Virus record (IMG/VR): IMGVR_UViG_3300044695_001263
Location: 1 to 29,943 of that record
Origin: a virus
Reading direction: 5' to 3' (one strand)
Length of the DNA: 29,943 nucleotides
This document shows, piece by piece, positions 1,765 to 29,530 of the stretch (the stretch's first letter is position 1; every line of letters starts with the position of its first letter). A program made the position numbers and the translations under genes. Below the pieces are notes generated by a model. It had not been told where the DNA came from. It searched no databases and saw only the letters and a program-made list of their open reading frames with translations.

Positions 1765-2304
1765 TTACTTTTTATACCTATATTGTATCTCTTTGATATT
1801 TTGTTTTATTTCTTTGATTAGAAAGAAAGCTGATGTGTTATTGATATTAAAGTACTTAGCCAAAGATGTCTGAGTAGAGTAACCTTTGTCATAGTATGCC
1901 TCAAAGATAATCTTTTTTATTCTATCATCCAAAGAGTTACGGTATATCTCCACCATTGCCTTCTTGAAGTTATAACTCTCTTCTAAGTTCACTTTATGCT
2001 CAATGTCGCTTGAGTCATCTAATGAGTCACCTAGATACTCATGTGATCTATAGATGTCATCTTTTTTAGTCCTTGAACCTTGAGTCCATATCAGCTCATA
2101 CTTGATAGTGTTTAGTAGATAGCTTTTAGCCTTGTCTTCTGTTACCTCATCCATTTCTAGCTTAACACAATGAAGATAAGCATTATTAATGACAGCATCA
2201 GCTTCTATAGAGCTAGGAATTTTGAGTCGTTGAATAAAGTGCTTTGTGTATTTGAGCACCTCTGTGTAGTTTTTCTGCAAGTATTGGTCAAGCATTCTTT
2301 TCAT
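1765..2304 (-). CDS. Sigma-70-like (ECF-type) transcription factor, likely late-gene activator
   Basis: The 179-residue protein has the two-part layout of small sigma factors. Residues about 8-75 resemble region 2 (an acidic, aromatic helical bundle: DAVINNAYLHCVK ... AKSYLLNTIKYELIW). Residues about 125-175 resemble the region 4 helix-turn-helix (IFEAYYDKGYSTQTSLAKYF ... SAFFLIKEIKQNIKE). Its place between the replication/early genes and the packaging genes is typical for a late regulator. I infer that it directs RNA polymerase to the repeated TACAATATAGGTATG element, one copy of which sits in its own 3' end. The start may be ATG 2304 or the ATG three codons later; both overlap the preceding gene's end by a few bases. 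Without structure prediction, a non-sigma HTH protein remains possible. Confidence 0.7.
   Translation of the reverse strand: MKRMLDQYLQKNYTEVLKYTKHFIQRLKIPSSIEADAVINNAYLHCVKLEMDEVTEDKAKSYLLNTIKYELIWTQGSRTKKDDIYRSHEYLGDSLDDSSDIEHKVNLEESYNFKKAMVEIYRNSLDDRIKKIIFEAYYDKGYSTQTSLAKYFNINNTSAFFLIKEIKQNIKEIQYRYKK
1774..1787 (-). promoter_or_regulatory. Late promoter-like element, copy 5 (TACAATATAGGTAT)
   Basis: On the minus strand this reads TACAATATAGGTAT, identical over 14 bases to the elements that carry the start codons at 29518, 22209 and 16269. Here it lies inside the last codons of the sigma-like gene (encoding QYRY) and the next ATG is 13 nt downstream instead of being part of the element. 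This copy argues for a transcription signal, because sequence identity is kept where no start codon is present. Confidence 0.7.
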
Positions 2305-2491
2305 ACCAGGATAAAAAGTCCTTATACCACACCTTACGTCTCACTGTAGAGCAGAAACATTCTTTATCAATCACCTTAGTAGCTTTGACTTTCACTTGCT
2401 TGAGTTGATTCAATGACCTCTTAGTCATAATCTCAGCCTCAGGTAGTACTATTATTGATTCTATGAGTTGTATATCAGCTTGTTCAAGCAT
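2288..2491 (-). CDS. Small conserved phage protein with CFCS..RRK..YKD motif (67 aa)
   Basis: The frame could open further upstream, but that part is a shadow of the membrane protein gene before it; the ATG at 2491 (MLEQADIQLIES) leaves a modest 31-nt overlap. The C-terminal half, with ECFCSTVRRKVWYKDFLSWYE, is a pattern I recognise from small proteins of Bacteroidota phages that sit beside the LGCWKC membrane protein. The paired cysteines could bind a metal or form a disulfide. Function is unknown. The stop overlaps the start of the sigma-like gene, so the two are probably translated together. Confidence 0.7.
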   Translation of the reverse strand: MLEQADIQLIESIIVLPEAEIMTKRSLNQLKQVKVKATKVIDKECFCSTVRRKVWYKDFLSWYEKNA

Positions 2492-2688
2492 ACGGCAGTG
2501 AGTGAAGTAGCACATGCTACAGTTAATGATTGTGAATAGATTAATGCTGACCAAAATGACATACACTTCCAGCATCCAAGAGCTGTGTGTAGCCAGTCAG
2601 GTAGAATGAATTTATCAATGAAGTTCTGAATGGGCTCAAAGTTAGTGAACCACCAAGATACTACTAATGGAGTGATGTATGCTATCAT
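2461..2688 (-). CDS. Small membrane protein with GCWKCMSFW motif (75 aa)
   Basis: Two hydrophobic stretches are visible: one near the N-terminus (YITPLVVSWWF) and one near the C-terminus (FWSALIYSQSLTVACATSLTAV), with a polar loop and a CWKC cysteine pair just before the second. This is the layout of a small inner-membrane protein family found in many Bacteroidota phages and prophages; its role is not known to me. Its gene lies just after the HTH gene hairpin at 2722..2742 and overlaps the next gene by 31 nt. Confidence 0.72.
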   Translation of the reverse strand: MIAYITPLVVSWWFTNFEPIQNFIDKFILPDWLHTALGCWKCMSFWSALIYSQSLTVACATSLTAVCLNKLIYNS

Positions 2689-2721
2689 TTTGCTAAGTTA
2701 GTAATTATTTATAAACAACAG

Positions 2722-2956: not shown

Positions 2957-3120
2957 AATTTGTAAAGATTATAAACATAGTAGATAAACACTAAGACAAA
3001 TACTACTATAACTCCAATGGTGCCAAACATCATATCAACACCATACATGAATAGAGCTACAAATATCACCCAGATTAGGCATACTACAGCCCAGATTCCG
3101 AACATTTTTAGCTTTTCCAT
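2950..3120 (-). CDS. Small two-helix membrane protein (56 aa)
   Basis: The frame starts at ATG 3120, which shares its A with the TAA stop of the DUF3127 gene (TAATG), and ends 7 nt inside the HTH gene. The protein has two hydrophobic helices, about residues 8-26 (IWAVVCLIWVIFVALFM) and 33-52 (GTIGVIVVFVLVFIYYVYN), separated by a short loop. It is an integral membrane protein of unknown function. The tight overlaps on both sides make it likely to be real. Confidence 0.72.
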   Translation of the reverse strand: MEKLKMFGIWAVVCLIWVIFVALFMYGVDMMFGTIGVIVVFVLVFIYYVYNLYKLW

Positions 3121-3395
3121 TAGAATAGTTTTGAGATAACTTTTAAAGCATTTAAGCTTACATAGTGTGTGCCATTGTATTCTCTACCTCTCAGCTCGAA
3201 TGTCACCTCTACTTGTTCATTCACCTGGATAAAGTCTAGTAGCTCAGTATTGTTATTGACTAATTGAAATTTCACCTCTTGAGGATACTTCTCATCTCCT
3301 ACCTTAAGGATAAATTCTTGTATCTTGAACTTTTCAGATACTTGTTTGAATGGCAGTTTACTTATAACTGTTCCTGTTGTTGTGTGTTGATTCAT
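3120..3395 (-). CDS. DUF3127 family protein, OB-fold single-strand-binding-like (91 aa)
   Basis: The start is taken at ATG 3395, 1 nt after the stop of the preceding gene, giving MNQHTTTGTVISKLPFKQVS. The sequence matches the DUF3127 pattern: TGTV near the start, SEKFKIQEFILKV, KYPQEVKFQLVN, and ELRGREYNGTHYVSLNALKV near the end. DUF3127 proteins are nearly confined to Bacteroidota and have an OB-like beta fold; in phages they are thought to bind single-stranded DNA. Its place in the same operon as the ERF annealing protein and exonuclease supports a role in replication or recombination. Confidence 0.82.
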   Translation of the reverse strand: MNQHTTTGTVISKLPFKQVSEKFKIQEFILKVGDEKYPQEVKFQLVNNNTELLDFIQVNEQVEVTFELRGREYNGTHYVSLNALKVISKLF

Positions 3396-3396
3396 G

Positions 3397-3585
3397 TTAT
3401 TTGTTTTTGATATAATCACTTAATTGTTTCTCTTCATGCTTGATAGCTTTCTTTACATTCTTTAGAAGTTTTTTACCTATCTCCATATTGTCAATTACAA
3501 ATTTTTTTCTTAGGTGTAGCTCTTCAATTGCAAACTCTTGTCCTTCAATCCATAAGTCTACTGACTTTTTAAAATCTTTATCCAT
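3397..3585 (-). CDS. Small helical hypothetical protein (62 aa)
   Basis: A strongly charged, lysine-rich, probably all-helical or coiled-coil protein starting MDKDFKKSVDLWIEGQEF. I do not recognise the family. It begins 20 nt after the T-rich end of the hairpin at 3605..3669, so its expression may depend on how much transcription passes that hairpin. The next gene starts 1 nt after its stop codon. Confidence 0.65.
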   Translation of the reverse strand: MDKDFKKSVDLWIEGQEFAIEELHLRKKFVIDNMEIGKKLLKNVKKAIKHEEKQLSDYIKNK

Positions 3586-4097: not shown

Positions 4098-4718
4098 TTA
4101 TTTGTTTTTTAATTGTTCAAGATATTCATTGTAGTAATTAGTGCAGTTGTACAGTCTCTCTGCTATCTTCTCCTCATCTTCTTGGCTGTAAGTATACTCA
4201 AGTACTGTGATTCGTTTCTTAGGATCAATGTGAGATACTTTGTGGATTGATTTATTATCCCAGTCAGAAAGCAAAAAGTCATCTGTATCAATCATGCAGT
4301 AGATTAACTCAGCTGATTCCTTGTCACATAGCATCATGTACCCTCTCAACTGCCATTCATAGTCTTTATTGATTCCTTCTGCTGCTATAGCTGGAAAAGT
4401 CTCTAAGGACCATGAAGTCTTAATGTCAATGATTGAATTGTCTAAAATAATGTCAGGTGTACCAATTAGACAGTCATTTTGTATAGTCTCTTCATTCTTG
4501 ATATAAAATGTATCTCTAATCTGATTGACTAACTCAATTGATTCATGCTCCCAGTCAGTGCCTTTCTGCATTGCTTTGGTAGAGATAAAAGAGTTATAGC
4601 CAAAGAAGTCCTCTTTTGCCTTGCTTGCGATATAAGACTTAGTAGTCTGACTCAATACTTCTGACTTAGTGCGTGACTCAGTCATTAATTTTCCTAGTGA
4701 TGATGGATGCCATTTCAT
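4098..4718 (-). CDS. YqaJ/lambda-Exo-like PD-(D/E)XK exonuclease (recombination)
   Basis: This 206-residue protein has the signatures of the YqaJ-type phage exonuclease: an N-terminal KWHPSSLGKLM, a GTDWEHE segment (residues 53-59) corresponding to the conserved acidic helix, GTPDIILDN with D89, and IDIKTSW with D98 and K100 forming the PD-(D/E)XK core. QLRGYMML matches the conserved glutamine helix. It should degrade one strand of double-stranded DNA to give 3' overhangs for the annealing protein. Its start overlaps the ERF gene stop by 4 nt (ATGA), the usual pairing of an exonuclease with a single-strand annealing protein. Confidence 0.85.
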   Translation of the reverse strand: MKWHPSSLGKLMTESRTKSEVLSQTTKSYIASKAKEDFFGYNSFISTKAMQKGTDWEHESIELVNQIRDTFYIKNEETIQNDCLIGTPDIILDNSIIDIKTSWSLETFPAIAAEGINKDYEWQLRGYMMLCDKESAELIYCMIDTDDFLLSDWDNKSIHKVSHIDPKKRITVLEYTYSQEDEEKIAERLYNCTNYYNEYLEQLKNK

Positions 4719-5218
4719 AATGCTTGTATTTGTTGTTTGGTTAGGTTAAAATCTGATTTCAATTTCTCTGCTGTGTACTTGCCTGACTCAATTGACTTAA
4801 GAGCTTCCTTGAATCTGTCATCTGTAAGAGTTGGCTTAGTGGCTGATGCGACTGAGTTACCATCATCATCTACAGCTTGAAGGCTCAGAAGTGATTGTAA
4901 AGTTGCTCTTCTGTAGTAGGTCGTTGCACTAATCATTTTTTGTGGATCAATATTGTCAGGCAATGTCAACCATGACTCTATCATTTCACCAGTCTCAATG
5001 TCAATTATCTGAGTGCTCAGTATCTTGTCATGGATAGGTTGTAATAGGAGCAGTCCATTCTCATGAAGGATAGGCTCAACTGTTTCTAGCAATGCGTTAA
5101 TATCAGCATAGCTCTTTTTAAAGTGAGGATTGGTGCTGTTCTTAACAACTTTGCCGATACTCATCTTTGCCTTATGGATCTTGGTCCACAATGGCACTTT
5201 GGTTACTTCTGTTTGCAT
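4715..5218 (-). CDS. erf: ERF-superfamily single-strand annealing protein
   Basis: The 167-residue protein carries the ERF family pattern: NPHFKKSYADINALLETVEP (residues 30-49), ENGLLLLQP, and ISATTYYRRATLQSLLSLQAVDDDGN (the conserved YYRR..L..LL.L...DDD motif, about 97-121). ERF proteins coat single strands and anneal complementary ends, acting in phage recombination and concatemer formation. It forms an operon with the exonuclease. A good host-type promoter (5240..5269) lies just upstream, giving a leader of only about 16 nt. Confidence 0.9.
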   Translation of the reverse strand: MQTEVTKVPLWTKIHKAKMSIGKVVKNSTNPHFKKSYADINALLETVEPILHENGLLLLQPIHDKILSTQIIDIETGEMIESWLTLPDNIDPQKMISATTYYRRATLQSLLSLQAVDDDGNSVASATKPTLTDDRFKEALKSIESGKYTAEKLKSDFNLTKQQIQAL

Positions 5219-5239: not shown

Positions 5240-5269
5240 CAAATGTAATAATTTTATTTAGTTGTGCAA
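5240..5269 (-). promoter_or_regulatory. Host-type promoter for the ERF-exonuclease genes
   Basis: On the minus strand TTG (5269-5267), a 19-nt spacer and TACATTTG (5247-5240) match the Bacteroidota sigma-A promoter form TTG-N19-TAnnTTTG. The expected start is about 6 nt downstream, near 5234, close before the ERF ATG at 5218. The -33 box touches the stop codon of the upstream 51-residue gene. Confidence 0.75.
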
Positions 5270-5982: not shown

Positions 5983-6200
5983 AGTTCTAAGTATATCATT
6001 TGTAATAATAATTCTTTTAAACTTAGACATGGACTTAAAGACTCTATGTCCTCTCTTTCAGTTACTGTACCAAAAGAGCCTTTAAAATTAGTAGTAAAAG
6101 ATAGTATAGTAAAGTGTCCATCATACTTTAATGTGGCTATTGTACACACTGTAGACATCAATTCATTGACATCCATTTGATCCATCATTTTTTTATTCAT
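5979..6200 (-). CDS. Conserved small phage protein (73 aa)
   Basis: The motif KYDGHFTILSFTTNFKGSFG (residues 26-45) followed by SLKELLLQ is one I recognise from small proteins encoded beside replication genes in Bacteroidota phages. It appears to be a small alpha/beta protein. The role is unknown. It overlaps the PrimPol-helicase gene and the VRR-NUC gene by ATGA on both sides, so the three are likely translated together. Confidence 0.75.
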   Translation of the reverse strand: MNKKMMDQMDVNELMSTVCTIATLKYDGHFTILSFTTNFKGSFGTVTEREDIESLSPCLSLKELLLQMIYLEL

Positions 6201-8443
6201 TTCTCTTCTATTTTTTTAATTAAATTTATTACTTGCTGTCTAGAAATACCTAGCTGTTCAGCTACTTTTGTTCTGTTAAAGTTACTATCTGACTTGTAGA
6301 TAGCAAGTAATTTATCATAGGTAGTCTCAGCTCCTTTCATGGCTGATTTAATATCTTTCAATTCAGCAGCTTCAATCTTTATTTTCTTGGCATTCATAAT
6401 AAAGTAGTTGCTTAACTTTTCAGCTTTAATAATACTATCTTTAGAGACTTCAATAACATTAACATTCTCATCAAAATTACTTGAAAATATATGAATTAAT
6501 AGAGCAAATCTAGGGATGTAACTCTTTTGCTTTGGATACATTGACTTAAGATATTCATTCTCCTCATCATTGTTTTGCTCCTTAGTAATTCTGTTAAAGA
6601 TACGCTTCCATTCTTCCTTAGCTTCTTGCTTGAATTTAACTGTGTTAGTGATTATTTTGCCATCATTATCTCGCTTAATAAATGCACTTTTTAAACCTTG
6701 ATAAAATCTAGTGATAGTGTTACTATACCACATGATATCAGCTATGTGCATTTCATTCTCATTGTATTCTTCAACCTTTGCATCAGGAAAGCTCAACAAC
6801 ATACGGTCTAAAAATCCATTATCCTTATTCTCATCTGTAGCAAATTGATTGAAGATACTTGGCTGAATACCTCCGAGCACTGGTATGAATGGTCTCTCAA
6901 TAAATGATCCTTTTCTAGTCATTCTATTCACAGATACTGACTTGCTACTCCAACATGATAGCCAAAATTCTAAATCAGATCCAGCTCTGTACTTATTCAT
7001 GTCTTTAAACCATCCAGCAAGCTCATCTTTAAATACTCCTACAGAATTATCTGACTCCTGGTGTAAGTCAACCAATGCCTCTAATGTAATATCATTAGCA
7101 ATAAACTGAGTCTTTTTAGGTTTCATTGGCTCAGGATGTTCTTCTTTCTCTTTCTTAGTTAAATCATTGTAGTAGTTGTATACTTCCATCTGATCAGAAT
7201 ATCTCTTTATCTCTTTGAAGTTCAATACATTCAATGGCTTAATGATATTGTCAATACTTGGAGTCTTACCTATACCAGCTCTACCTACTACAGCTAACCA
7301 AATTACACCAGGCTCAGTCCATCCTTTTTTAACTTCAATCTCATAGGTATTACCAACACAAACTGAAATTAACCAAAGTAAACTGCATCCCATGTAGTCA
7401 ATATTAGCATCTAATTTTTTGTTACATTCTAAAATGTAATGCTGTATTTCTTCTGGAAATATATCTAATGGAAAATCAATACCTGAGATAGGCAAAGGTT
7501 TATCAATCTTAGGTTTATCCTTTTCAATCTCTTTCTTTCTTCTAGATCCAAATCCTTGCTCATACAAATCCTTAGTAGCTTCTTTAAAGTCACCATTGTG
7601 CATCTTATGTGCATAAGCTACAAATGGACTTATTAGCTTCTCATGTGGATAAACTGTACCGGTAGAGAATAAATACATGCATCCACTATCTCTGAACACA
7701 CTACCTGAGTGAGCAGAAGTAGCTCCATGTCTTTTGATTAGGTAGTGATCTTTCTTTTGTCCATTGGTAGGGATAAAGAAGTCATCTTGAATAACAGACC
7801 AGATATCTGTTTTATCATTAAAATCTTGCCAAGGTGTCACCTCATCATCTGAGTATATCTTTGGCTCTTTCTTTGGCTCCTCTGGTGCTTTATCAATGTG
7901 ATTGTAAGCTGAGGATAAATTCCAAAGTGTTTGTCTATCCTCATCTGTGATAAATTGCAATTGAAAATAGGACTTAGTATTCTGATATCTTTTACCAGGA
8001 TAAACAAATACATAACCGCCAGTACCTCTACTTTCAATTACAGCCTCTTTATGTCCTTTAAGTTTAGCTATCTTAGTATTTCCTATTACTCTTTTAGACT
8101 TGTATAGAATGTGATAGCCTCCACTTTTAGTAACATAGACTGAAAATTTATTCTCAAAGTCTAAGATGTTATCTTTAAGAGTCTGATAGTATTCCTTCCA
8201 GAACTGATCCTTTTCTAATTGAGTTGAGAATACCTTAGTATCAACATCAATCACCTCTAATGATTCAAAGCCAGTGACTATTCCAATACCTTCTGTAGAT
8301 GTATCTCTAAGATTTTTTAAGAATTGTTCTTCTGTCAGTTTTTCTGATTGACATTCTTTCCATTTATGATTAGGGACTTTATTATCACCAATTGTTATAA
8401 CTGAAAAAAACTCTAGAAAATTTAATGCTTGTAATTCATCCAT
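6197..8443 (-). CDS. Replicative PrimPol-helicase fusion (AEP primase plus DUF3987 helicase)
   Basis: A 748-residue replication protein with several domains. Residues about 8-165 look like an archaeo-eukaryotic primase/PrimPol domain: IDVDTK with D66 and D68 as metal ligands, GGYHILYK with H111, and ESRGTGGYVFVYPG (137-150). Residues about 210-300 form a linker that may be a primase-C-terminal or zinc-free binding region. Residues about 325-700 match the DUF3987 helicase/ATPase, with Walker A GRAGIGKT (387-394) and a KDELAGWF Walker-B-like segment. The last 25 residues (TKVAEQLGISRQQVINLI) are a helix-turn-helix. It should prime and unwind phage DNA. The putative origin lies directly upstream and the gene has its own promoter and leader hairpin. 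Confidence 0.88.
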   Translation of the reverse strand: MDELQALNFLEFFSVITIGDNKVPNHKWKECQSEKLTEEQFLKNLRDTSTEGIGIVTGFESLEVIDVDTKVFSTQLEKDQFWKEYYQTLKDNILDFENKFSVYVTKSGGYHILYKSKRVIGNTKIAKLKGHKEAVIESRGTGGYVFVYPGKRYQNTKSYFQLQFITDEDRQTLWNLSSAYNHIDKAPEEPKKEPKIYSDDEVTPWQDFNDKTDIWSVIQDDFFIPTNGQKKDHYLIKRHGATSAHSGSVFRDSGCMYLFSTGTVYPHEKLISPFVAYAHKMHNGDFKEATKDLYEQGFGSRRKKEIEKDKPKIDKPLPISGIDFPLDIFPEEIQHYILECNKKLDANIDYMGCSLLWLISVCVGNTYEIEVKKGWTEPGVIWLAVVGRAGIGKTPSIDNIIKPLNVLNFKEIKRYSDQMEVYNYYNDLTKKEKEEHPEPMKPKKTQFIANDITLEALVDLHQESDNSVGVFKDELAGWFKDMNKYRAGSDLEFWLSCWSSKSVSVNRMTRKGSFIERPFIPVLGGIQPSIFNQFATDENKDNGFLDRMLLSFPDAKVEEYNENEMHIADIMWYSNTITRFYQGLKSAFIKRDNDGKIITNTVKFKQEAKEEWKRIFNRITKEQNNDEENEYLKSMYPKQKSYIPRFALLIHIFSSNFDENVNVIEVSKDSIIKAEKLSNYFIMNAKKIKIEAAELKDIKSAMKGAETTYDKLLAIYKSDSNFNRTKVAEQLGISRQQVINLIKKIEEK

Positions 8444-8569: not shown

Positions 8570-8599
8570 CAAATATACTAATTTTCCTTAGATTACAAA
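8570..8599 (-). promoter_or_regulatory. Host-type promoter for the PrimPol-helicase
   Basis: On the minus strand TTTG (8599-8596), 18 nt and TATATTTG (8577-8570) match the Bacteroidota TTTG/TAnnTTTG promoter. The predicted start near 8564 gives a leader of about 120 nt that contains the hairpin at 8459..8514. The iteron array begins 9 bp upstream of the -33 box, so a protein bound there could control this promoter. Confidence 0.7.
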
Positions 8600-8607: not shown

Positions 8608-8785
8608 AGGTGTAAACTACTGTAAAGTGACTTTACACCTGACTTTACAGTAACTTTGTAGTATCTATAAGGGTTGTAGCCGTTTTAGGTGTAAAGTTTA
8701 CAGTAAAACTGATTTTAAAATTTTTTTTTTATTTTTTTTTTATTTCTCTACTGTAAAGTCACTTTACACTTTACACTTTACACCT
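8608..8785. other. Putative replication origin: iteron array with AT-rich tract
   Basis: Ten copies of the hexamer TTTACA or its complement TGTAAA start at 8611, 8621, 8632, 8644, 8690, 8697, 8752, 8763, 8770 and 8777. Many belong to longer palindromes such as CTGTAAAGTGACTTTACA and AGGTGTAAA...TTTACACCT, and the last three form a 7-bp tandem repeat. Between the groups, 8710..8745 is an almost pure A/T stretch with two long T runs, suited to unwinding. The array lies between the PrimPol-helicase and a DnaA-domain-IV-like gene. It may be the origin, an operator, or both. Confidence 0.65.
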
Positions 8786-9152
8786 GTCTTTCTATGTACT
8801 GATTGTTAGCTAATCTATCCTTGATTATCTTTAAATCTGTGGTGTTGTTACACTTGATAACATCCTCAAAGATAGAGTACTTAGGTAGTTGCACTGGTGG
8901 ATAAAGATAGTCTTTAATTGGTGCTATAGCATCATCATAAATTCTGTCACAACTTTGGAATTGATTGTCCACTTTTAGTCCATTGATGACAGTTGCATGG
9001 TGCTTATCCATCAATCTACCAATCTCTGACAGATTCATTCCTAATTTTTGGAGCTCAGAATAAACATAAGCTCTCTTGTAGATTAAGTCTCTATCTCTAC
9101 AGCTGGTGGTCAGGTTGTAAAGTTTAATCATGTATTTTAATTTCTCAATCAT
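8778..9152 (-). CDS. DnaA domain IV-like DNA-binding protein (124 aa)
   Basis: Residues about 27-62 (RAYVYSELQKLGMNLSEIGR then LMDKHHATVINGLK) match the C-terminal DNA-binding domain of the initiator DnaA, where 'LSxxEIGxxxxRxHxTVxxxxxK' forms the helix-turn-helix and contacts the DnaA box. No ATPase domain is present, so this is a stand-alone domain. The TAA stop is part of the first TTTACA iteron of the adjacent array. I infer that it binds those iterons, to start replication or regulate the PrimPol promoter. Its own start overlaps the preceding gene by 4 nt. Confidence 0.75.
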   Translation of the reverse strand: MIEKLKYMIKLYNLTTSCRDRDLIYKRAYVYSELQKLGMNLSEIGRLMDKHHATVINGLKVDNQFQSCDRIYDDAIAPIKDYLYPPVQLPKYSIFEDVIKCNNTTDLKIIKDRLANNQYIERQV

Positions 9153-9409
9153 AATATCTCTATTTGTGTTGATGTGACTTTGATTTCTTGTTGATTATGA
9201 AAAATAGTGTAGTAGTTTAAGTGCTCAGTAATTATAGGACATTTCTCATTTTGAAAGATGCATATCTGAGCTGGTGTAATTTCTTTAATGCTGTATCCCT
9301 TACCTTTGTATTTCTCAGACACATCATAAGCATCAGCTACTCCACCACTAACTACTATAAACAAGTCTTCTTTCTCTTTGTGTTGAAGTTTTAGTATTGT
9401 TCTTTTCAT
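9149..9409 (-). CDS. Hypothetical early protein (86 aa)
   Basis: The protein begins MKRTILKLQHKEKEDLFIVV and appears beta-rich (DLFIVVSGGVADAYD ... EIKVTSTQIEIL). It has two cysteines at ICIFQNEKCP. I do not recognise the family. ATGA overlaps join it to the third MKQTAV paralog upstream and to the DnaA-like gene downstream, so it is in the same early operon. Confidence 0.7.
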   Translation of the reverse strand: MKRTILKLQHKEKEDLFIVVSGGVADAYDVSEKYKGKGYSIKEITPAQICIFQNEKCPIITEHLNYYTIFHNQQEIKVTSTQIEIL

Positions 9410-9618
9410 ACTTTCTTAAATGTTTCGTTGTAGTATTCATGTGGGGTAATAAAATTACCTTGTGTTCCATTATTCCATCCATTACTATGAGCTCTAAGTA
9501 TCTGCTCCTTCTCCATTTCTTTGGCTTTTTGTATAGCTACTTTTACCCAATTCGGATTGTCTCCATATTCAGGCAATGTTAACTCTTTTTCTAACCAATC
9601 TACTGCTGTCTGTTTCAT
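9406..9618 (-). CDS. MKQTAV-family small protein, paralog 3 (70 aa)
   Basis: The protein starts MKQTAVDWLEKELTLP, has a QKAKEMEKEQI helix in the middle and ends HEYYNETFKKV. The same three blocks occur in the proteins at 9945..10187 and, in part, 10520..10759, so these are paralogs. The family is widespread in Bacteroidota phages as small early proteins of unknown role. The start overlaps a 26-residue membrane peptide gene by ATGA. Confidence 0.78.
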   Translation of the reverse strand: MKQTAVDWLEKELTLPEYGDNPNWVKVAIQKAKEMEKEQILRAHSNGWNNGTQGNFITPHEYYNETFKKV

Positions 9619-9944: not shown

Positions 9945-10187
9945 TTATTCTGATTTAAAGGTTTTATTATAATGTTCTTCTATATCAAAAAAACAACTGT
10001 TATTTTGTAAGCAAGTTTCAGCAAAGTCAATAGTATTTTCCTTTTCCATTTCTTTGGCTTGTTGAATTAATTTCAAATAATCTTCAACTTTAATTGAAAT
10101 GTTAATTCTGCCAATACTTGCATTCTCCCAAGAATCACCTTGCTGTTCAAGTTGTTCTATAAATTGTTCTACTGCTGTTTGTTTCAT
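9945..10187 (-). CDS. MKQTAV-family small protein, paralog 2 (80 aa)
   Basis: Starts MKQTAVEQFIEQLEQQGDSW, carries QQAKEMEKENT in the middle and ends EEHYNKTFKSE, each block matching paralog 3 at 9406..9618. Helical and acidic; function unknown. The last codons contain AACCTTTAAA, a short sequence repeated before other start codons in this genome. Confidence 0.76.
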   Translation of the reverse strand: MKQTAVEQFIEQLEQQGDSWENASIGRINISIKVEDYLKLIQQAKEMEKENTIDFAETCLQNNSCFFDIEEHYNKTFKSE

Positions 10188-10519: not shown

Positions 10520-10759
10520 TTAATCTAAATTAGAATTGTTAATTACTTCAATGGCTTGACTTTTTAAATCTCTATCGTGTGGCATACCACCTTCACACGT
10601 TTCAATAAACAATCTACAAAATGCTAAAGATTTATTTAATTGTTGTTCTTTTTGTTTTTCAAATTCTAAAGCTTGTTCAATAGCTTCATGCCATTCTATT
10701 TGAGTTGGGTTAATATCTTGAAGTTTACTCATTAACCACTCTACTGCTGTTTGTTTCAT
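10520..10759 (-). CDS. MKQTAV-family small protein, paralog 1 (79 aa)
   Basis: The start MKQTAVEWLMSKLQDINPTQ matches the other two paralogs, and the following helix (IEQALEFEKQKEQQLNKS) resembles their QAKEMEKE block. The C-terminal part differs (CRLFIETCEGGMPHDRDL). Function unknown. ATGA overlap with the preceding 81-residue gene. Confidence 0.76.
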   Translation of the reverse strand: MKQTAVEWLMSKLQDINPTQIEWHEAIEQALEFEKQKEQQLNKSLAFCRLFIETCEGGMPHDRDLKSQAIEVINNSNLD

Positions 10760-11001
10760 GATAGTTGTTTCTTTGAGTCAATATTCTTAAAGATGTCAGA
10801 GTCTGAGTCTATCCTTCCAGTAGCCTTGATAAAGTCTACCTCCAGCTTAGCTGAGTTGATTATCACAGATCCAATTGAGCTGATAGCTTTTGCCTTATCT
10901 ACCTCTTCTTTTATCTGTTCATTACTTAAAGACTCATCATTAAGTCTTTCTAATGCTGCAAACATGTGGTCACGTAGATCACTAATTTTGTTTCTTGCCA
11001 T
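10756..11001 (-). CDS. Conserved small helical phage protein (81 aa)
   Basis: A helical protein beginning MARNKISDLRDHMFAALERL with the conserved block AKAISSIGSVIINSAKLEVD (about 37-56) and FIKATG, a pattern seen in early proteins of Bacteroidota phages. Possibly a small DNA-associated or oligomeric protein; nothing more specific can be read. It starts 20 nt inside the HNH gene. Confidence 0.72.
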   Translation of the reverse strand: MARNKISDLRDHMFAALERLNDESLSNEQIKEEVDKAKAISSIGSVIINSAKLEVDFIKATGRIDSDSDIFKNIDSKKQLS

Positions 11002-11602
11002 TGATTTTCTTGTTTAGTTTACTTGTTAATTTAATTATCTGTTGTATTTCTTCTGGGAATCTTTGGATGGTATTCCTTGCCATGTTATCTTTCATTGATA
11101 CCATTTCTAAGTTGCTAATGTCACAGTTCCTGGTGTTACCATCAATGAATCTAATCAAGCTACCTTTTGGTATTGGTCCATTGTGGTCTATCCATACTTT
11201 GTTGTGGTAAAGAATCCATTTGCTATCAGCTAACTTGTAGTACAGATATACTCTACCACTTAGGTCAGTATCTTTTCTCTCTACAATAGATCCATCTGGC
11301 CTCCAGTTGTGTGGTCTATTGCCTTTTTTCCACATTGTAGCTTTGACTTTCTCATAGGTTTCTGCTGGCATTTCTTTGCCCTTGTTAAATGGTACGTTGC
11401 CTTTTTTGAATCTAAACTTTTTACCACCTTCAATGAGATTTGTTCTACCAGAAGACTCTGACTGTTTAAATTCTAAGGTCTTTCTAAGGCCCATTGTAGA
11501 TGCTCTGCTAGCTACTTGAGAATAGCTTAGTCCTAAGTCATCAGCTATACCTTGAGTCCTTTCATGAGGAAATCTTTGTCTTATGATTTCATTCTGTGTC
11601 AT
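10982..11602 (-). CDS. HNH endonuclease with N-terminal DNA-binding region
   Basis: The 206-residue protein has an HNH core: WILYHNKVWIDHNGPIPKG (H133, H140, N141) and FIDGNTRNCDISNLE (N155, N163), followed by MARNT. Residues about 15-42 (GIADDLGLSYSQVASRASTM) look like a helix-turn-helix, and the FRFKKGNVPFNKGKEM stretch resembles the DNA-contacting modules of free-standing homing endonucleases. It probably nicks or cuts DNA, perhaps spreading itself between phages. It lies inside an early operon with no intron visible. Its start shows the AGCTATGA context shared by the three genes before it. Confidence 0.85.
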   Translation of the reverse strand: MTQNEIIRQRFPHERTQGIADDLGLSYSQVASRASTMGLRKTLEFKQSESSGRTNLIEGGKKFRFKKGNVPFNKGKEMPAETYEKVKATMWKKGNRPHNWRPDGSIVERKDTDLSGRVYLYYKLADSKWILYHNKVWIDHNGPIPKGSLIRFIDGNTRNCDISNLEMVSMKDNMARNTIQRFPEEIQQIIKLTSKLNKKINGKKQN

Positions 11603-16281: not shown

Positions 16282-16300
16282 CTTAGTAAAAATTTTAATT

Positions 16301-16329
16301 AAAAAAAAAGCCTTACATTTCTGCAAGGC
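16301..16329 (-). terminator. Rho-independent terminator after the tail tube gene
   Basis: Minus strand GCCTTGCA, loop GAAA, TGTAAGGC: an 8-bp stem with one G-U and a GNRA tetraloop, followed by nine T residues. It is the best terminator in the window and ends the protease-capsid-tube unit. Confidence 0.9.
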
Positions 16330-16354
16330 CTCTTTATCTATGGAGAAGAATAGA

Positions 16355-18847: not shown

Positions 18848-18859
18848 GCCTATATTGTA
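18845..18859 (-). promoter_or_regulatory. Late promoter-like element, copy 3 (one mismatch), containing a start codon
   Basis: Minus strand TACAATATAGGCATG, with C for T at one position. The ATG is the start of the protease-scaffold gene. The divergent plus-strand genes start only 45 bp away, so the two promoters share this spacer. Confidence 0.7.
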
Positions 18860-18867: not shown

Positions 18868-18875
18868 TATATTTG
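18868..18875 (+). promoter_or_regulatory. Host-type -7 box for the plus-strand pair (TATATTTG)
   Basis: TATATTTG matches TAnnTTTG exactly. No good TTG lies 18-21 bp upstream, so this is a half-site. A start near 18881 would give a leader of about 11 nt before the ATG at 18892. Confidence 0.45.
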
Positions 18876-18891
18876 TTAAAAATTAAAATCT

Positions 18892-19437: not shown

Positions 19438-20143
19438 GATTGATGTATTCCAATATAAAGAGGTCAGAGACTTATACAGTATTCAAGAAGTATTCAGTAG
19501 AGAGATTGAGATTCTCGCTGCACTAGCAGACATTAACTCTGAGGACATTGAAGACTTAGATATTGAAGAGGTCACTGTGATGCTGGCTGATATTAAGTAC
19601 ATTAATTCAGAGCCATCTAAGAACTTTAAGAGACAGCTTGATGACTATCATTATAAGCCACTAGATAAGTTAACCATTGGTGAGTATATTGACCTTGAGT
19701 TCTACTTTTCAAAAGACTACAATAAGCACATTGGTCACATTGCATCCATTATGTATAGGCAAAAGTCTACCAATGAATGGGGTGTGACTATTTATGAGCC
19801 GTATGCTTTCAGTCCAAGAGATAGACATGAGCTATTTGATGAGTATAAAATCAATGACATCTATGGAATTATTCCTGAGTTCATATCTTTTAGAGAGAAC
19901 TTCATGGATACCTATGGTAACTTATTCCATGACAATACTGCTGAGGATGATGATGAGGTAAGACCTACCAATAGTGAAGAGGCCAAAGAAATACAAAAAG
20001 AAAAGAGTCAGTTAAAATGGGGATGGGAAAGATTAATCTATTCTCTATGCAATGAAGACCTCACTAAGTTTGAAGAAGTCACTAACCTACCACTTATCAT
20101 GACCTTCAACATGTTAGCCATGAAGAAGGAATTAAACATCTAA
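19412..20143 (+). CDS. Probable tail assembly chaperone, paralog B (plus strand, 243 aa)
   Basis: The frame could extend back to a TTG at 19373, but the ATG at 19412 with CAAAGG in front gives a 26-nt overlap with paralog A and is preferred. MYLPKSWSEIDVFQYKEVRD aligns with the start of paralog A (PNQLNELTVQQFETI). The middle (REIEILAALADINSEDIEDL, then IEEVTVMLADIKYINSEPSK and LDKLTIGEYIDLEFYF) matches the same family. The C-terminus (TSEEAKEIQKEKSQ-like helix, then KWGWERLIYSLCNEDLTKFE) is longer than in A. It ends 12 nt inside the convergent gene at 20132..20581. A +1/-2 frameshift product joining A and B is possible but no slippery site was found. Confidence 0.6.
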   Translation: MYLPKSWSEIDVFQYKEVRDLYSIQEVFSREIEILAALADINSEDIEDLDIEEVTVMLADIKYINSEPSKNFKRQLDDYHYKPLDKLTIGEYIDLEFYFSKDYNKHIGHIASIMYRQKSTNEWGVTIYEPYAFSPRDRHELFDEYKINDIYGIIPEFISFRENFMDTYGNLFHDNTAEDDDEVRPTNSEEAKEIQKEKSQLKWGWERLIYSLCNEDLTKFEEVTNLPLIMTFNMLAMKKELNI

Positions 20144-20745: not shown

Positions 20746-22209
20746 TTAAAAATTAGAGATGTCTAGTAGCTCTTGAGTAGTTGATTCACCGACTGCTGAA
20801 TTTGTAAAAGTTACAATTAGATATAAAGTACCTGAAGGAAGTGCAGCATCTAAGCCCACAACTGTACTTGTGCCATTGTCATTGATAACTCCAGTGGCCG
20901 CATTCAATCCTTTAATGTTACCACCTTCAATCTCAAATACTCTACTTATTGTAGCTAATCTAGTACCAGTAACAATAGTAGAACCAGTTGAAAGTATCTG
21001 AACTGCTCCACTTAGATTATTACTATTAGGACTTAGATAAGCTCTAATAGTACTTCCAGCAACTGCACCTTTTGTGATTCTTAAAGTATTAATCTTAAAG
21101 ATAGTGCCATTGCTCAAAGTAGCTAACTGAGTAGAACTAACAATAGTCTCAGATGTTGTGCCAGTTAAAGTGTAATTTGTTGTGACAGTTGTTTTAAACC
21201 ATCCTAAACCCGTTAGGATAGGTTTATTTTTCCAAAGTGAAGTTGAACTTTCATAAACCAAAGTTTCATTGTTGGCTGGTGCAGTTAATAATACATCATG
21301 TAACTCTCCTAGTTCATAACCATTTTGTATAGCATATAAGATACGACCATTTGTATTCTGTGATCGTGTAACTGTACCAATGAATACTGTGTGAGCTGGT
21401 TGCGTTGGGGGTGTTGTTGTTACTTGTCCTGCTGTTTGACTAAGCCATAATTTATCACCAATTGAATAAGCTGTGGTGTCTAAGTTGTTTACCTCTCCAC
21501 TTGTTACAACAAAGCCAGTAGCATCATTTGCAATATCTTCATAAACTGCTCCTAATGTTTTTGAGCTTGTAGCCTCAGTGTCTGCATCAGCTAACAATAT
21601 CTCAGGATAAGTACCACTTGAGCTTGAAGATTTTAAATAAACAATAGAACCTTTTACTACAGTTGCTCCAGTTTTATTGATAACTCCTACCATTTCTTTG
21701 CGTGATGACTCAACTATTCCATCATTGTCAGGGTCATAAACTGCCTTAGTCATGTAGTCACTTAGTACAGGTATATCTGATGTAGTTGCTATAGTGTAGC
21801 TCCCAGTTGTTTTATCAGGAAATTCAAGAATAACACCAGGATTGCTAACATTTGTATTCTGTAGTGAGCTTTCTTCAGCTCCAGTTCTCAAAGCTATTTC
21901 ACCAGTATCTCTCAATGTGACATGAGTGTTAGCTAATGTATTCTCTGTTCTTATATCTATTCCACTAACTGTAGTAGCTTCGTTAACTCCTGAAGTTATT
22001 GTAATTGAATTTGTAGTAGTGGAACCTATATCAGTAACTTGCTGTAAGTTCTGACTACCACCACCGCCACCAGCATTGATAATCTCTTGACCAGTTATGG
22101 AATAAGTGTCATAACCAGTGCCAGTAAGTACACTTACCTCAAGCAAATCTGTAGCTTGTAGGTTAGCTCCTTTCGGATTCATCTGTGATATCTTCTGTCT
22201 ACGTGCCAT
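20746..22209 (-). CDS. Tail fibre or spike protein (487 aa)
   Basis: The N-terminus (MARRQKISQMNPKGANLQAT, with DLLEVSVLTGTGYDTYSITG) is a common virion-attachment start in Bacteroidota phage fibres. A glycine run GGGGGS at about residues 48-53 follows, then threonine/serine/valine-rich beta repeats and small turns (NSITITSGVNEATTVSGIDI; LNTLANTHVTL-like repeats), as in trimeric fibres. The region around 180-330 has a compact beta domain (SIVYLKSSSSSGTYPEILLA, then SIGDKLWLSQTAGQV and FIGTVTRSQNTNGRILYAIQ). It likely binds the host surface. Its ATG belongs to a late element. Confidence 0.8.
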   Translation of the reverse strand: MARRQKISQMNPKGANLQATDLLEVSVLTGTGYDTYSITGQEIINAGGGGGSQNLQQVTDIGSTTTNSITITSGVNEATTVSGIDIRTENTLANTHVTLRDTGEIALRTGAEESSLQNTNVSNPGVILEFPDKTTGSYTIATTSDIPVLSDYMTKAVYDPDNDGIVESSRKEMVGVINKTGATVVKGSIVYLKSSSSSGTYPEILLADADTEATSSKTLGAVYEDIANDATGFVVTSGEVNNLDTTAYSIGDKLWLSQTAGQVTTTPPTQPAHTVFIGTVTRSQNTNGRILYAIQNGYELGELHDVLLTAPANNETLVYESSTSLWKNKPILTGLGWFKTTVTTNYTLTGTTSETIVSSTQLATLSNGTIFKINTLRITKGAVAGSTIRAYLSPNSNNLSGAVQILSTGSTIVTGTRLATISRVFEIEGGNIKGLNAATGVINDNGTSTVVGLDAALPSGTLYLIVTFTNSAVGESTTQELLDISNF

Positions 22210-22221
22210 ACCTATATTGTA
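22207..22221 (-). promoter_or_regulatory. Late promoter-like element, copy 2, containing a start codon
   Basis: Minus strand TACAATATAGGTATG with the ATG at 22209 starting the tail fibre gene. It directly follows the stop of the 150-residue gene (22222), so it begins a separate unit for the fibre genes. Confidence 0.75.
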
Positions 22222-22674
22222 TTAACCTGGTAAATTAGTTATAAGAGGCACCTGGCAATTGGTCCAATTACTTATGTCAACATCTAATGTCATCACCCAT
22301 CCTGCAGCATAGTCAAGTAGCTGATTATTCAATGGAGTGATTGATGGTGATCCAACAATATCAAAGGAATAATCATCACTAAAATTGAAATAGTTGATTA
22401 AGTCTACCAATATCTGATGGCAGTCTGACAATATCACTGTGATGTTAGCTCTATCCTTTTGGATGATATCTAAGCAATATACTTCTAAGCTGATAGTGTT
22501 TACATCCATTGTAGTAGATGCCACAATTGGAGTGATAAAAACCAAAGGATACCTCTCATCTTTAGTGGCAAAGTTAGGAAGTTGCTCATTGAAGTCACTA
22601 CCTACTTTCTTAACTTGTAGGTGATCGTTATAAAATGCTTCAATCTTGTTTATTAGTGCTTGATAACTGTTCAT
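22222..22674 (-). CDS. Conserved tail-associated protein (150 aa)
   Basis: An alpha/beta protein, MNSYQALINKIEAFYNDHLQ ... ERYPLVFITPIVASTTMDVN ... VYCLDIIQKDRANITVIL ... AGWVMTLDVDISNW. The order helix, then three to four beta strands, helix, then strands resembles tail terminator (gpU-like) proteins that cap the tail tube, and the length fits. The position after the tape measure is less usual for a terminator, so the call is tentative. The start overlaps the tape measure stop by ATGA. Confidence 0.6.
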   Translation of the reverse strand: MNSYQALINKIEAFYNDHLQVKKVGSDFNEQLPNFATKDERYPLVFITPIVASTTMDVNTISLEVYCLDIIQKDRANITVILSDCHQILVDLINYFNFSDDYSFDIVGSPSITPLNNQLLDYAAGWVMTLDVDISNWTNCQVPLITNLPG

Positions 22675-25235: not shown

Positions 25236-28032
25236 AAACTCTAATTTCTATTGATGTGTTAACAAGCATATTATCTGATGGTGTAAAATTGTCATAAGTA
25301 TACAAAGTGATTGTATCCTCATCAAACCTTCTAGCAATTACTGTAGCAAAGTCACCACCCCCAGCACTAACATCAGCTGAGCCAGTTACTATAAATGTCT
25401 TATCTAGTGTGAAGGAATCAATCAACTCTAGTTTATAGACTCCAGTAGAAGTTCTTGAGAATGTAGGAACCTCACTAAATGTATTCTCTAATACTATTGC
25501 TGTAGGAGCATTTGTGCTTGATTGGTTAATCAAAGCTACATATTTCTTAAATGGTGCCACCACAGCTCCATTGATAGTGCCTGTGACTGTTAGGTTGTTT
25601 ATAACCATACCATCGTTACTCAATGTCTGACCATCACCTACTATGATTCCTTTTGTACCAGCTGTGACCACGTTGCCCTTACCAAAGACTTGAGCATTCG
25701 CACCTGGTAAGATGACATTGTTATTGAAAGTATTTCTACCTACCAATGCGTCAACACCTACTCCTATCATTACATCACCAAATGGCCTACCTAAGCCAGT
25801 CTTAAATGGTGCCAGGTCTATCTCAGTGTCAATACTGATTAGCTCTACCTTTGTAAGCTGTCGTTGGTTACCATTGTAGTCTTGAATCTTATTGATATTC
25901 CACCAGGAGTTATCAATATAAATCTTATCATTCAGCTTAAGTGATTGGATGTCTAGCTCAGTTAAGTCAAAGTAAGCTATCAACATTTTTCCTACATTAA
26001 TCTGATTGACTGTTCTTCTCCAGTATAGGTTGTATAGGTTGTTAGCTGTCAGTGATATAGGCTCATAGAAGTAAAAGTCATTAGTGCCAAAGTTGATATC
26101 AAAGCTAGGTGTCGACGCATTGTCGAAATGTCCCAACATTGGATAGTCAGTCAAGCCAAACTCTCCAGTAGTGCCAAAGTCTAAGATGTCAAATGGCTGA
26201 CATGATTGCAAGCCACCATCATACAAGATGCGGATGTTAGTGTTTGGTGATGCACCAATGATAGCTGGTACATAAGCTCCGAATGATGTCAAGAATACTG
26301 GTGTCGGAGAAAATATCAACTCCTGAGTAGATACATCCTTCACATACTCATTGTCAAAGGTATACTCTAGCTGACCATAAATCTCACTAGTAGCTTGAGT
26401 GTACATTGTGTTGAACTCATCTGTGTCAGGTGCATAAGTGAGCTTGAGCTTCTTGTTAGTTAAGTCAGGCAAAAATATTAACTGCTGGTCCTTATCCTTA
26501 GCTAACTTTCTACTCCAGTCCTTCTCAGCTCCTGAGTCATAGTACTCATCTCTGTGTCTTAAGATTAGGTTGTAAGGATTGTTAACATCTTGCTCAACAT
26601 ACAAGTTGTACATCTGTAGGATAGACTTAACAAAGTCAGACTGTTTTATCTCTTTTGGTACGTATTGATTGATGTTAAGTGTACTACCAGTTACTTGTAT
26701 GTTGTTGCTAGGTAGAATCACCATGTTAATAGATATCAAGTCAAGCACTACATTAACTGGTGCTAATGTAGGAGTCCCAGCAAATGTGTACCATAAAGTG
26801 TTGTAAGGTAATTGCGTATCATCAGTATAACTGTATACAGGATAAATCTCAACACCTATCTCAAGAATCTGAATATCTGATGCAGTGATTCCTAATATTA
26901 CACCATTGACAACTGCTGGAATAGTCAAGGTGTCTGAGAATGATAAGATAGTAGTATTGCCATTAGGTAGTGGTGAGCCAGTAAAGTAATTAACAATAAC
27001 ACTTGACCCATACACAATGATAGCATTTGTGTTACCAGCTACTTGTACTCTAGCATATACTCTATATTTTTTATATCCAAAATCTAAGAAAGTACCTGGT
27101 GTTCTCAATCTAGCATTACCTCCACTTGTGTTCTCTAATGTTATAGTTCCACCAATTGCTAAGCCATAGGAGTAATTCTCACTAGCCACAGCATTAGTAC
27201 TAAATGGTGTTGAATACTCACCAGTAGTAGGATCAAAGATATTCTGTGCATCTATAACCTCTGACCATCCTGAATCTATAAGCTCCTCAAATGTATTATT
27301 ATATCCAGTAGGTTGCACATAGCTTGTGGTCCATGTGTTGGTAGCCTCTACTCTATAGTCAGCATAATCTTGATCATTAGTGTCACCATTGTAAGGAATT
27401 AACAACTTATCAAAGTGAGCTGATGTTAAATCATTCCAGGTGTATGTGAAACCAGCCACAGCAAAGATTCTATCAAAGTAAGTCTTAGCATAGATTGCTG
27501 GCTTGAAGTCATTTGCATTGTAGTCATTGCTATTGATATACGGCATGACATACTTATAACCATCCACCACAGTGTTACTGAATGATGATGCAATATTAGT
27601 AGAGCTAAACACATGATCTAAGTCTGAGAAGTCTAAGTCAGTCAAGTTAGCATTTGTGATAGCTGTGAAGAACTCAGCTCTACTATCCTTGATTAGTACC
27701 TCATAGGTTACCTCATCTTCATACCTGGTGTTAGTTTGTAGCTTGTTGACACTTACCAACTGCAATAGTGCCTCATCTAAAATAGGTACTCCATTCTGAA
27801 TGACTTGACACTTTGTTAGTGTGTTGATGTTAAATGTGCCAGCTTGTATGTTTACATCATAGTAGTGACCAAGTAGGTCATTGTTATTCTTAGTGCCAGC
27901 TAATGTGATGGTCTTAGAGAATGTCCCCTTGCGTGAGGATAGATCTCTAATGTCACCAACACTGAATGTGATAGGTAGTGCAAGATTTTCTGATACATCA
28001 AGCACTCCATTAGGTAGAACTATTTTAACCAT
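25228..28032 (-). CDS. Large tail tip/central fibre protein (934 aa)
   Basis: A long beta-rich protein following the 497-residue tail protein. The N-terminal 200 residues (MVKIVLPNGVLDVSENLALP, then SFGDIRDLSSRKGTFSKTI-like text) resemble the tail hub or baseplate proteins of Bacteroidota siphoviruses. About 580-700 contain repeated beta segments with aromatic residues (NNLYNLYWRRTVNQINVGKM). About 755-830 has a VGVDALVGRNTFNNNVILPG, then NAQVFGKGNVVTAGTKGII stretch with short repeats typical of trimeric beta-helices. It is likely part of the tip that binds the host. The overlaps with both neighbours are 8 nt. Confidence 0.75.
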   Translation of the reverse strand: MVKIVLPNGVLDVSENLALPITFSVGDIRDLSSRKGTFSKTITLAGTKNNNDLLGHYYDVNIQAGTFNINTLTKCQVIQNGVPILDEALLQLVSVNKLQTNTRYEDEVTYEVLIKDSRAEFFTAITNANLTDLDFSDLDHVFSSTNIASSFSNTVVDGYKYVMPYINSNDYNANDFKPAIYAKTYFDRIFAVAGFTYTWNDLTSAHFDKLLIPYNGDTNDQDYADYRVEATNTWTTSYVQPTGYNNTFEELIDSGWSEVIDAQNIFDPTTGEYSTPFSTNAVASENYSYGLAIGGTITLENTSGGNARLRTPGTFLDFGYKKYRVYARVQVAGNTNAIIVYGSSVIVNYFTGSPLPNGNTTILSFSDTLTIPAVVNGVILGITASDIQILEIGVEIYPVYSYTDDTQLPYNTLWYTFAGTPTLAPVNVVLDLISINMVILPSNNIQVTGSTLNINQYVPKEIKQSDFVKSILQMYNLYVEQDVNNPYNLILRHRDEYYDSGAEKDWSRKLAKDKDQQLIFLPDLTNKKLKLTYAPDTDEFNTMYTQATSEIYGQLEYTFDNEYVKDVSTQELIFSPTPVFLTSFGAYVPAIIGASPNTNIRILYDGGLQSCQPFDILDFGTTGEFGLTDYPMLGHFDNASTPSFDINFGTNDFYFYEPISLTANNLYNLYWRRTVNQINVGKMLIAYFDLTELDIQSLKLNDKIYIDNSWWNINKIQDYNGNQRQLTKVELISIDTEIDLAPFKTGLGRPFGDVMIGVGVDALVGRNTFNNNVILPGANAQVFGKGNVVTAGTKGIIVGDGQTLSNDGMVINNLTVTGTINGAVVAPFKKYVALINQSSTNAPTAIVLENTFSEVPTFSRTSTGVYKLELIDSFTLDKTFIVTGSADVSAGGGDFATVIARRFDEDTITLYTYDNFTPSDNMLVNTSIEIRVYE

Positions 28033-29518
28033 TGATTGTGTCGTTGTTACCTATCCTTACTTGAATAGATTGCTTGATTAGATTCTTATTTCGTTGCTGA
28101 TAGACTTCAAAGTTGTTAGTCAAAACATTACAGCTGACATACTCAGTTGACTCAGGCACGTGAATTATACAGCCAGCCTCATCGAATAGTACAGCACCAT
28201 CTTCTGTGATGCGATAGAGTACATTCTTGATGTAAGTCTGTGGTGATGTCAGCAACTGCTGAAAGTATACACCCTCCTCCTCTGTCATAAAGTTGGTTGA
28301 TAAGTCAAATGTCTTAGTGACCTCAGTGTTTATGTTAACTGTACCTTGTTCATAACTTTTATATCCCCACTGACCATCAACAACTGCACCAGGTACATCT
28401 TGATTGTAAGTCTGTCTATTGATGTTGCCTCTCTCATAGCTCTTAAGCTGAAATGCAAAGCTACTCCATGAGCCTAATCTATCTAAGAACACAATGTGAC
28501 TTTCAGAGATTAACATTCGTCTGTCTATGTTTACCTTGTACTTGATTGATTTTTGTGTTGGTGTAAGTCCATCAACATACCAAACTTCATAGCTCTTAGT
28601 GTCATTCTTTACCAATGGAGCTGTGCCACTAATCAATGTAAGTGAACCATAGTTATTAGGACCAACTGCCACACCTTTGATAGTCTCAGTACCAGCTACC
28701 ACCTTAGAGAATAAATCTCCATTGTCATTTTGAAAGTATACCTTGCCAGCTGGTGCAACACCAAAGCCACGCATGTTTAACCATAAATCTTGACCAGGTG
28801 TTGAGCTAAATTCTTGAGGCTGGTCTGTTAACCATTCCTTAGTAGTACCGTCAAGCTCATAGTCAGTCTCATCCCAGTAAGGGAACTCAAGCCATGAATA
28901 TACACCATTGAAGACAAATTTGTCAAGTGTTGACTCTATGTCTAAGTCTATAGTCTTTCTTTTATCAGCATACTCAACAACTCCATTGATAGTAGCATCT
29001 GTTACTCCTGACCATAGAGCATTGATTGTGAAGTTAGTGGTGCCAGTTATAGCTATCACAGTATGAAGTCCCTCAACACCAGGATTGGCTACTCCACCAT
29101 CAGCTTGAGTGATATTCACCTGGTCACCTACTTGGAATGGATGAGTAGCTGTGATGCGTACATTACCACCATTATCTGTAAGTGATGCTGTGTAGCTCAT
29201 GTCAAAGATATACTCCTCACCAAACTTAACATCATAGCCAAAGTAACTATTGGATGCATCATAGAAAGTAGTGATTGAAGGATTGAAGTCAAAGCTCACT
29301 GAGTTGCTCAGTAGCTTAGATAAATCTTGCTCACCATAGCCAGTGCCAAATGTAGGTAGTGCTTTGTAGTATCCTATCCTTAGATTAGTCACTGAGTCAA
29401 ACACCTCAAATATGTATCTGAAGCCTGACTTATTCTTGTTAGTAGAGTCAATGATAAACTTGCACTCGTTATAAGCTGGAGTGAAGTCCTGAGGCTGTGC
29501 TATGATTGTTTGTGCCAT
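28025..29518 (-). CDS. Tail protein, first gene of the tail unit (497 aa)
   Basis: A beta-rich protein with an N-terminal part like distal-tail or baseplate proteins (MAQTIIAQPQDFTPAYNECK, then FIIDSTNKNKSGFRYIFEVF). Residues about 113-190 form a small inserted beta domain (NVRITATHPFQVGDQVNITQ, then HTVIAITGTTNFTINALWSG) that I have seen as a mobile module in several phage structural proteins. The C-terminal half repeats beta motifs with NYGSLTLISG and YEQGTVNINTEVTKTFDLST. Virion location is likely; exact position in the tail is inferred. Its ATG is part of the late element at 29516..29530. Confidence 0.72.
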   Translation of the reverse strand: MAQTIIAQPQDFTPAYNECKFIIDSTNKNKSGFRYIFEVFDSVTNLRIGYYKALPTFGTGYGEQDLSKLLSNSVSFDFNPSITTFYDASNSYFGYDVKFGEEYIFDMSYTASLTDNGGNVRITATHPFQVGDQVNITQADGGVANPGVEGLHTVIAITGTTNFTINALWSGVTDATINGVVEYADKRKTIDLDIESTLDKFVFNGVYSWLEFPYWDETDYELDGTTKEWLTDQPQEFSSTPGQDLWLNMRGFGVAPAGKVYFQNDNGDLFSKVVAGTETIKGVAVGPNNYGSLTLISGTAPLVKNDTKSYEVWYVDGLTPTQKSIKYKVNIDRRMLISESHIVFLDRLGSWSSFAFQLKSYERGNINRQTYNQDVPGAVVDGQWGYKSYEQGTVNINTEVTKTFDLSTNFMTEEEGVYFQQLLTSPQTYIKNVLYRITEDGAVLFDEAGCIIHVPESTEYVSCNVLTNNFEVYQQRNKNLIKQSIQVRIGNNDTING

Positions 29519-29530
29519 ACCTATATTGTA
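29516..29530 (-). promoter_or_regulatory. Late promoter-like element, copy 1, containing a start codon
   Basis: Minus strand TACAATATAGGTATG, with the ATG at 29518 starting the first tail gene. It lies 17 nt after the terL stop at 29548, so the tail unit is transcribed separately from the packaging genes. Confidence 0.75.

Follow-up and report, generated by a model that had tools for sequence, protein, structure and literature searches.

A repeated, start-codon-joined element at late gene units of an uncultivated phage: a likely late promoter and its candidate phage-encoded sigma factor

A short element that recurs at the heads of five gene units in an uncultivated virus genome is most likely a phage late promoter. 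Our analysis of the window – the whole 29,943-bp virus record IMGVR_UViG_3300044695_001263 – leads us to propose with considerable confidence a specific form of this reading: the promoter would comprise AA[CT], a spacer of 15 or 16 nt and the core TACAATATAG, and would be read by host RNA polymerase equipped with an ECF-like sigma factor encoded by the phage itself at 1765–2304. A phage-specific late promoter had already been suggested by a sequence-only reading of this DNA. That suggestion is now supported by conserved gene borders, a second box at fixed distance, a terminator abutting one copy and a sigma-like gene matched to the element clade by clade.

The repeated element and its partner box

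The record ends in a 127-bp direct terminal repeat and the genome is therefore probably complete; the terminase gene spans the record ends. The minus strand carries nearly all genes. Those of the early side extend from ~12.5 kb to ~1.8 kb and include PrimPol (6197–8443, minus strand; PF09250), ERF (4715–5218, minus strand; PF04404) and a single-strand-binding-like DUF3127 gene (3120–3419). The late genes comprise packaging, tail, fibre, protease-capsid, portal and endolysin genes, with a GP3-type small terminase (1064–1489) and the large terminase both in the packaging unit. Three further features of the minus strand deserve mention: an early-side gene at 8778–9152 with a weak match to the DnaA C-terminal helix-turn-helix (HTH; PF08299, 2.5e-5), possibly an origin-binding protein; an HNH endonuclease at 10982–11602 (PF13392), possibly a homing endonuclease; and an apparent small paralogous family at 9406–9618, 9945–10187 and 10520–10759 whose products start MKQTAV(E/D)W/Q. 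An Rfam scan of the window gave no match.

The host-type TTG/TAnnTTTG promoters previously noted on the early side are indeed present on the minus strand, as TTG-N-TATATTTG before the PrimPol gene (8570–8598) and TTG-N-TACATTTG before the ERF gene (5240–5269). Both are of the Bacteroidota primary form, TTTG/TAnnTTTG. The late element is of a different kind, as had been stated, and has no match to the TAnnTTTG −7 box of Bacteroidota sigma-A promoters. A search of the bacterial genome collection found no relative of the sigma-like protein or of the major capsid protein. The host phylum is probably Bacteroidota, as judged solely by the TAnnTTTG promoters and by which cultivated phages are the nearest relatives.

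All five minus-strand copies of the element lie where they had been reported. Those heading the tail (TACAATATAGGT, 29516–29530), fibre (22207–22221) and portal-lysis (16267–16281) units are identical; the protease-capsid copy (TACAATATAGGC, 18845–18859) has a single mismatch, GGC for GGT; and the packaging copy (TACAATATAGGTATA, 1773–1787) is identical over the 14 bases 1774–1787. With up to three mismatches allowed, the window yields one additional match, at 21315–21329 within a coding gene. There are five occurrences of the core 10-mer, TACAATATAG, against 0.23 expected (maximum 2 in 100 dinucleotide shuffles), but a few other 10-mers also reach five copies, and the argument is thus one of placement and conservation rather than of repetition alone.

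The placement is telling. That the element heads late blocks stands; that it lies merely upstream of their genes does not, since four of the five copies end in the start codon itself, the ATG of genes 28025–29518 (tail), 20746–22209 (fibre-like), 17891–18847 (protease-capsid) and 15934–16269 (portal-lysis) being the last three bases of the element. The fifth copy sits within the 3′ end of the gene preceding the packaging unit, with the ATG 13 nt downstream at 1758–1760. The element is always oriented as its gene is; it is not present before internal late genes, nor at borders that are not those of units. In addition, an intrinsic terminator of the capsid unit (16304–16335, minus strand; 14-bp stem and U-run) lies directly upstream of the portal-lysis copy, an arrangement that fits an independent transcript start at that point.

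The copies had been thought to share no motif in their flanks. This proved wrong: every copy is preceded by AA[CT] at a spacing of 15 or 16 nt, as AAC in three and AAT in two. On the minus strand these putative −35 boxes are AAT at 29547–29549 (tail, spacer 16; AAC in relatives L155/L017 and L168/L081), AAC at 22238–22240 (fibre, spacer 16), AAC at 18875–18877 (protease, spacer 15), AAT at 16298–16300 (portal-lysis, spacer 16) and AAC at 1803–1805 (packaging, spacer 15). To assess how general the box is, seven clades supplied 56 non-redundant candidate heads, chosen by element and ATG with the upstream sequence ignored. AAC occurred at spacer 15 in 29 heads and at spacer 16 in 14 (43 of 56), and almost nowhere else; across spacers 14–17 the count was 44 of 56, where 8.6 were expected and 1000 shuffles gave no more than 20. 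Most heads without AAC were either clade A sites, with AAT or AAG instead, or unrelated genes at which the core matches by chance. The distance from the start of the −10 box to the ATG was 12–14 nt in 39 of 49 heads.

ECF sigma factors recognize AAC at −35 and CGT at −10 (PMC4153023). The element family has the former, about 15–17 nt from the −10 box; CGT is absent from the −10 box of the window and of clades A–G and appears only in the cultivated phage P12024S (below), for which reason we do not class the promoter as canonical ECF.

The protease head has a further peculiarity. A host-type TATATTTG box on the plus strand (18868–18875) lies within the spacer of the putative late promoter and touches its AAC, so that two promoters of different type appear to overlap back to back; the box is kept in several clades, and two plus-strand genes (18892–20143) diverge from the protease unit at this point.

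Loss of the element from close relatives that keep the genes would have spoken against a promoter, but around 130 related contigs retain it at the same gene borders while the flanks have diverged. Relatives were gathered through the major capsid protein (80) and as loci carrying the upstream, sigma-like gene at 65% identity or more (83). Major-base frequency at the tail head is 98% within the element against 66–74% in the flank (42 distinct relatives), and at the portal-lysis head 100% against 58% for the adjacent upstream 12 nt (43 distinct sequences). The protease head gives 95% against 86% for the adjacent spacer; the fibre head shows a weaker contrast, 81% against 63% for the adjacent spacer. 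All 83 of the 83 loci have the packaging copy; it lies within the 3′ end of the upstream gene and there specifies the conserved C-terminus IQYRY.

More distant relatives that keep the genes carry in its place, at the same borders, another element of the same geometry. These clade-specific −10 boxes, with the same AAC spacing, are TTTAATATAG in clade B, CTATTATAAG in C and CTATTCTAAG in E; at these borders clade D has CTATTATTTAG or CATTATAAG, and clades F and G have GACAATATAG. They were recovered by anchoring on homology; a blind 11-mer search upstream of all open reading frames (ORFs) was dominated in several clades by A-rich words.

The candidate sigma gene and its clades

The gene at 1765–2304 (minus strand), the last before the packaging unit, encodes a protein of 179 aa that is very likely a divergent sigma factor of the sigma-70/ECF-like kind, a judgement that rests on profile matches and a predicted fold. 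The window protein matches nothing at curated thresholds: its score against NCBIfam TIGR02937 is 18.6 bits (E 0.0012; curated cut-off 42.9 bits), and against Pfam Sigma70_ECF its E-value is 0.18. Of the 42 homologues, 30 nevertheless match TIGR02937 (best 1.3e-5), collinearly over residues 5–170 of 179, and the alignment of the window protein covers sigma regions 2 and 4, extending beyond the C-terminal HTH. An AF2 model built with the 42 homologues (mean pLDDT 80.1) predicts two helical domains, corresponding to regions 2 and 4, joined by a disordered linker at 76–98, with no region 3. Foldseek comparison of the model with the PDB returned sigma factors or sigma domains for nearly all of the top 50 matches, at E-values of at least 0.009, mainly ECF SigL, AlgU, sigma-E, sigma-H and sigma-28; isolated region-4 domains superpose at 2.3–3.4 Å over 60–70 residues. 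A sequence search of the PDB gave no credible match, and among cultivated phages no relative of the window protein was found.

A homologous sigma gene is present in every clade. One candidate exception, G003, was rejected as a sigma-less phage, its near-complete record stopping just past the terminase. The deepest split in the sigma tree separates {A,B,F,G} from {C,D,E} (support 99/98) and coincides with the split of −10 types. This congruence supports recognition of the element by the sigma-like protein; shared ancestry of the whole phages could yield the same pattern, and it therefore stops short of proof. Conservation of region 2 versus region 4 across the clades revealed no clear link to the change in −10 box.

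Two observations concern the junction between the sigma gene and the packaging unit. At 1773–1787 the putative promoter overlaps the final codons of the sigma gene, so that the DNA element itself dictates the conserved C-terminal IQYRY of the clade A protein; the arrangement is similar in clade B, while in clades C–E the element follows the stop codon. Furthermore, in most relatives (L151, L129, L146 and L159, and clades B–E) an ORF of 50–56 aa with hydrophobic stretches follows directly after the sigma gene and opens the packaging unit; it could be anti-sigma or holin-like. In the window it is missing at 1760–1787, where ATG has become ATA and ~150 bp are gone.

Competing readings and the proposed mechanism

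One question is what reads the element. Flavobacteria possess several ECF sigmas (PMC9723704), and the promoter might be read by one of these alternative host factors, with the phage protein acting as, for example, a late activator of the RinA/ArpU type, a role for which a weak match to a RinA-family model (best 6.8e-4) could be cited. We consider this unlikely. The phage protein aligns to both regions 2 and 4, over residues 5–170 of 179, and not to the C-terminal HTH alone; the element is clade-specific, varying among phages in step with the phage sigma, and lacks the CGT found in host ECF −10 boxes (PMC9723704).

Four of the five copies touch the start codon, which raises another reading: a signal for translation initiation, akin to a Kozak leader box, in a phylum that makes no use of Shine-Dalgarno sequences. 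Flavobacterium ribosomes are indeed sensitive to the bases immediately preceding AUG (PMC6847099). Internal late genes, however, are devoid of the element. It is, in addition, identical where the ATG is 13 nt away, as in the packaging copy and at the fibre head of two relatives (L056 and L060), and across clades it is conserved together with an AAC 15–16 nt further up. With a terminator at 16304–16335 just before the portal-lysis copy, a transcript must either start there or read through. Because internal genes go without the element, the distance to the ATG varies and the partner box is fixed, we regard a translation signal as very unlikely. That the element is an operator, or a processing or packaging site, for another DNA-binding protein of the phage (small HTH-like proteins are encoded at 2732–2956 and 8778–9152), left at these borders by ancestry, is highly improbable given the promoter-like fixed geometry to start codon and AAC, an orientation that always matches the gene, and its absence from borders that are not those of units.

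Under the preferred reading, a late promoter served by the phage sigma, events would unfold as follows. Host-type TTG/TAnnTTTG promoters would start the early genes, of which the sigma gene is the last; its product would then activate the five late units – packaging, tail, fibre, protease-capsid and portal-lysis. Binding of the sigma to the element, the timing of these events and the exact 5′ ends of the transcripts are what we infer from sequence. In most units the −10 box begins 12 nt ahead of the ATG; transcription would therefore start at, or within a few nucleotides of, the start codon, and most late mRNAs would be leaderless.

Leaderless messages are a small minority in Flavobacterium, with which this prediction contrasts: 5.5% of mRNAs in F. 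psychrophilum (PMC9723704), while in F. johnsoniae 87% of leaders exceed 10 nt (PMC6847099). It is conceivable, and we offer it tentatively, that a widespread lineage of phages, probably infecting Bacteroidota, employs its own ECF-like sigma for late promoters fused to start codons, launching its structural genes on leaderless mRNAs, in hosts where such messages are rare, that enter translation by a distinct initiation route. If true, translation of the late genes would bypass the usual initiation route of host messages, constituting a second layer of take-over.

Known systems and wider meaning

What characterizes phage late-sigma systems – a phage sigma gene together with a phage-specific element that recurs at the late units – is found here, the sigma gene as a strong candidate. 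In phage T4, gp55 is the sigma for late genes and acts at TATAAATA late promoters, which have a short AT-rich −10; these promoters are without a −35 and require T4 gp33 and the sliding clamp. The window is like T4 in its candidate late-gene sigma and its short AT-rich −10, and departs from the −10-only design in possessing an AAC box at fixed spacing; counterparts of T4 gp33 and of the sliding clamp were not identified in the window. Another parallel is offered by phiEco32 and SU10, whose gp36 and gp32 are ECF-type sigmas working with host polymerase at middle and late promoters with a repeated AT-rich −10 (tAATGTATAtA) 6–8 nt before the start site (PMC4281155). A phage-encoded ECF-type sigma (a candidate in the window) and a repeated −10 element are common to both; host phylum and protein family differ, and only a −10 motif has been described for phiEco32/SU10, whereas the window has the fixed-spacing AAC box and a −10 that abuts the start codon. 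With ECF systems in general the window shares an AAC −35, a spacing of 15–17 nt and a predicted region 2 plus region 4 fold; its family is set apart by −10 boxes of the TACAATATAG or CTATTATAAG types, which lack CGT, and no anti-sigma was identified.

Phage-encoded late sigmas are thus already known (T4 gp55; phiEco32 gp36, PMC4281155), but the literature searched revealed neither a late promoter nor a late sigma described for Bacteroidota phages. As far as that literature tells, the novelty lies in a distinct sigma family and a bipartite, start-codon-joined promoter in phages that probably infect Bacteroidota. The work provides a concrete, testable sigma–promoter pair in an abundant uncultivated group and in a cultivated phage, P12024S, that is ready for use; naturally diverged sigma/−10 pairs over seven clades are material for learning how a sigma reads its −10 box and, in a phylum for which tools are few, a possible source of orthogonal promoter parts. 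Flavobacterium phage filifjonk9-1, in which no sigma is annotated and the late genes form one block, shows that the system is not universal.

The cultivated Nonlabens phage P12024S, whose portal is 24% identical to that of the window, offers a parallel. Its gp33 is annotated as a sigma-70 region 2 protein (NCBIfam matches SigE, 5.7e-8, and SigZ, 1.9e-7) and is encoded just before the packaging genes. Seven P12024S gene heads (179, 3031, 5412, 21280, 23961, 25201 and 26802) carry AAAAC or AAC, 16 or 17 nt, and then CGTTAATA or CGTTACTA (CGTTA[AC]TA), with the ATG 11–12 nt from the C. In the gp33 region of P12024S and P12024L we see an ECF sigma before the packaging genes, where the window has its candidate sigma, and the same AAC/−10/ATG geometry as in the window; unlike the window, P12024S has the canonical CGT in its −10. 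Profile comparison of the window sigma with P12024S gp33 detected no homology, and P12024S therefore lends support to the way of working, through a protein of similar role, and not to common membership. Published descriptions of P12024S/P12024L promoters were not found in the literature searched. In P12024S (L309, NC_018271), at 2980, 5365 and 23927 (minus strand), short ORFs bearing TATATTTG-like boxes run divergently opposite late heads, overlapping the AAC box, as at the protease head of the window.
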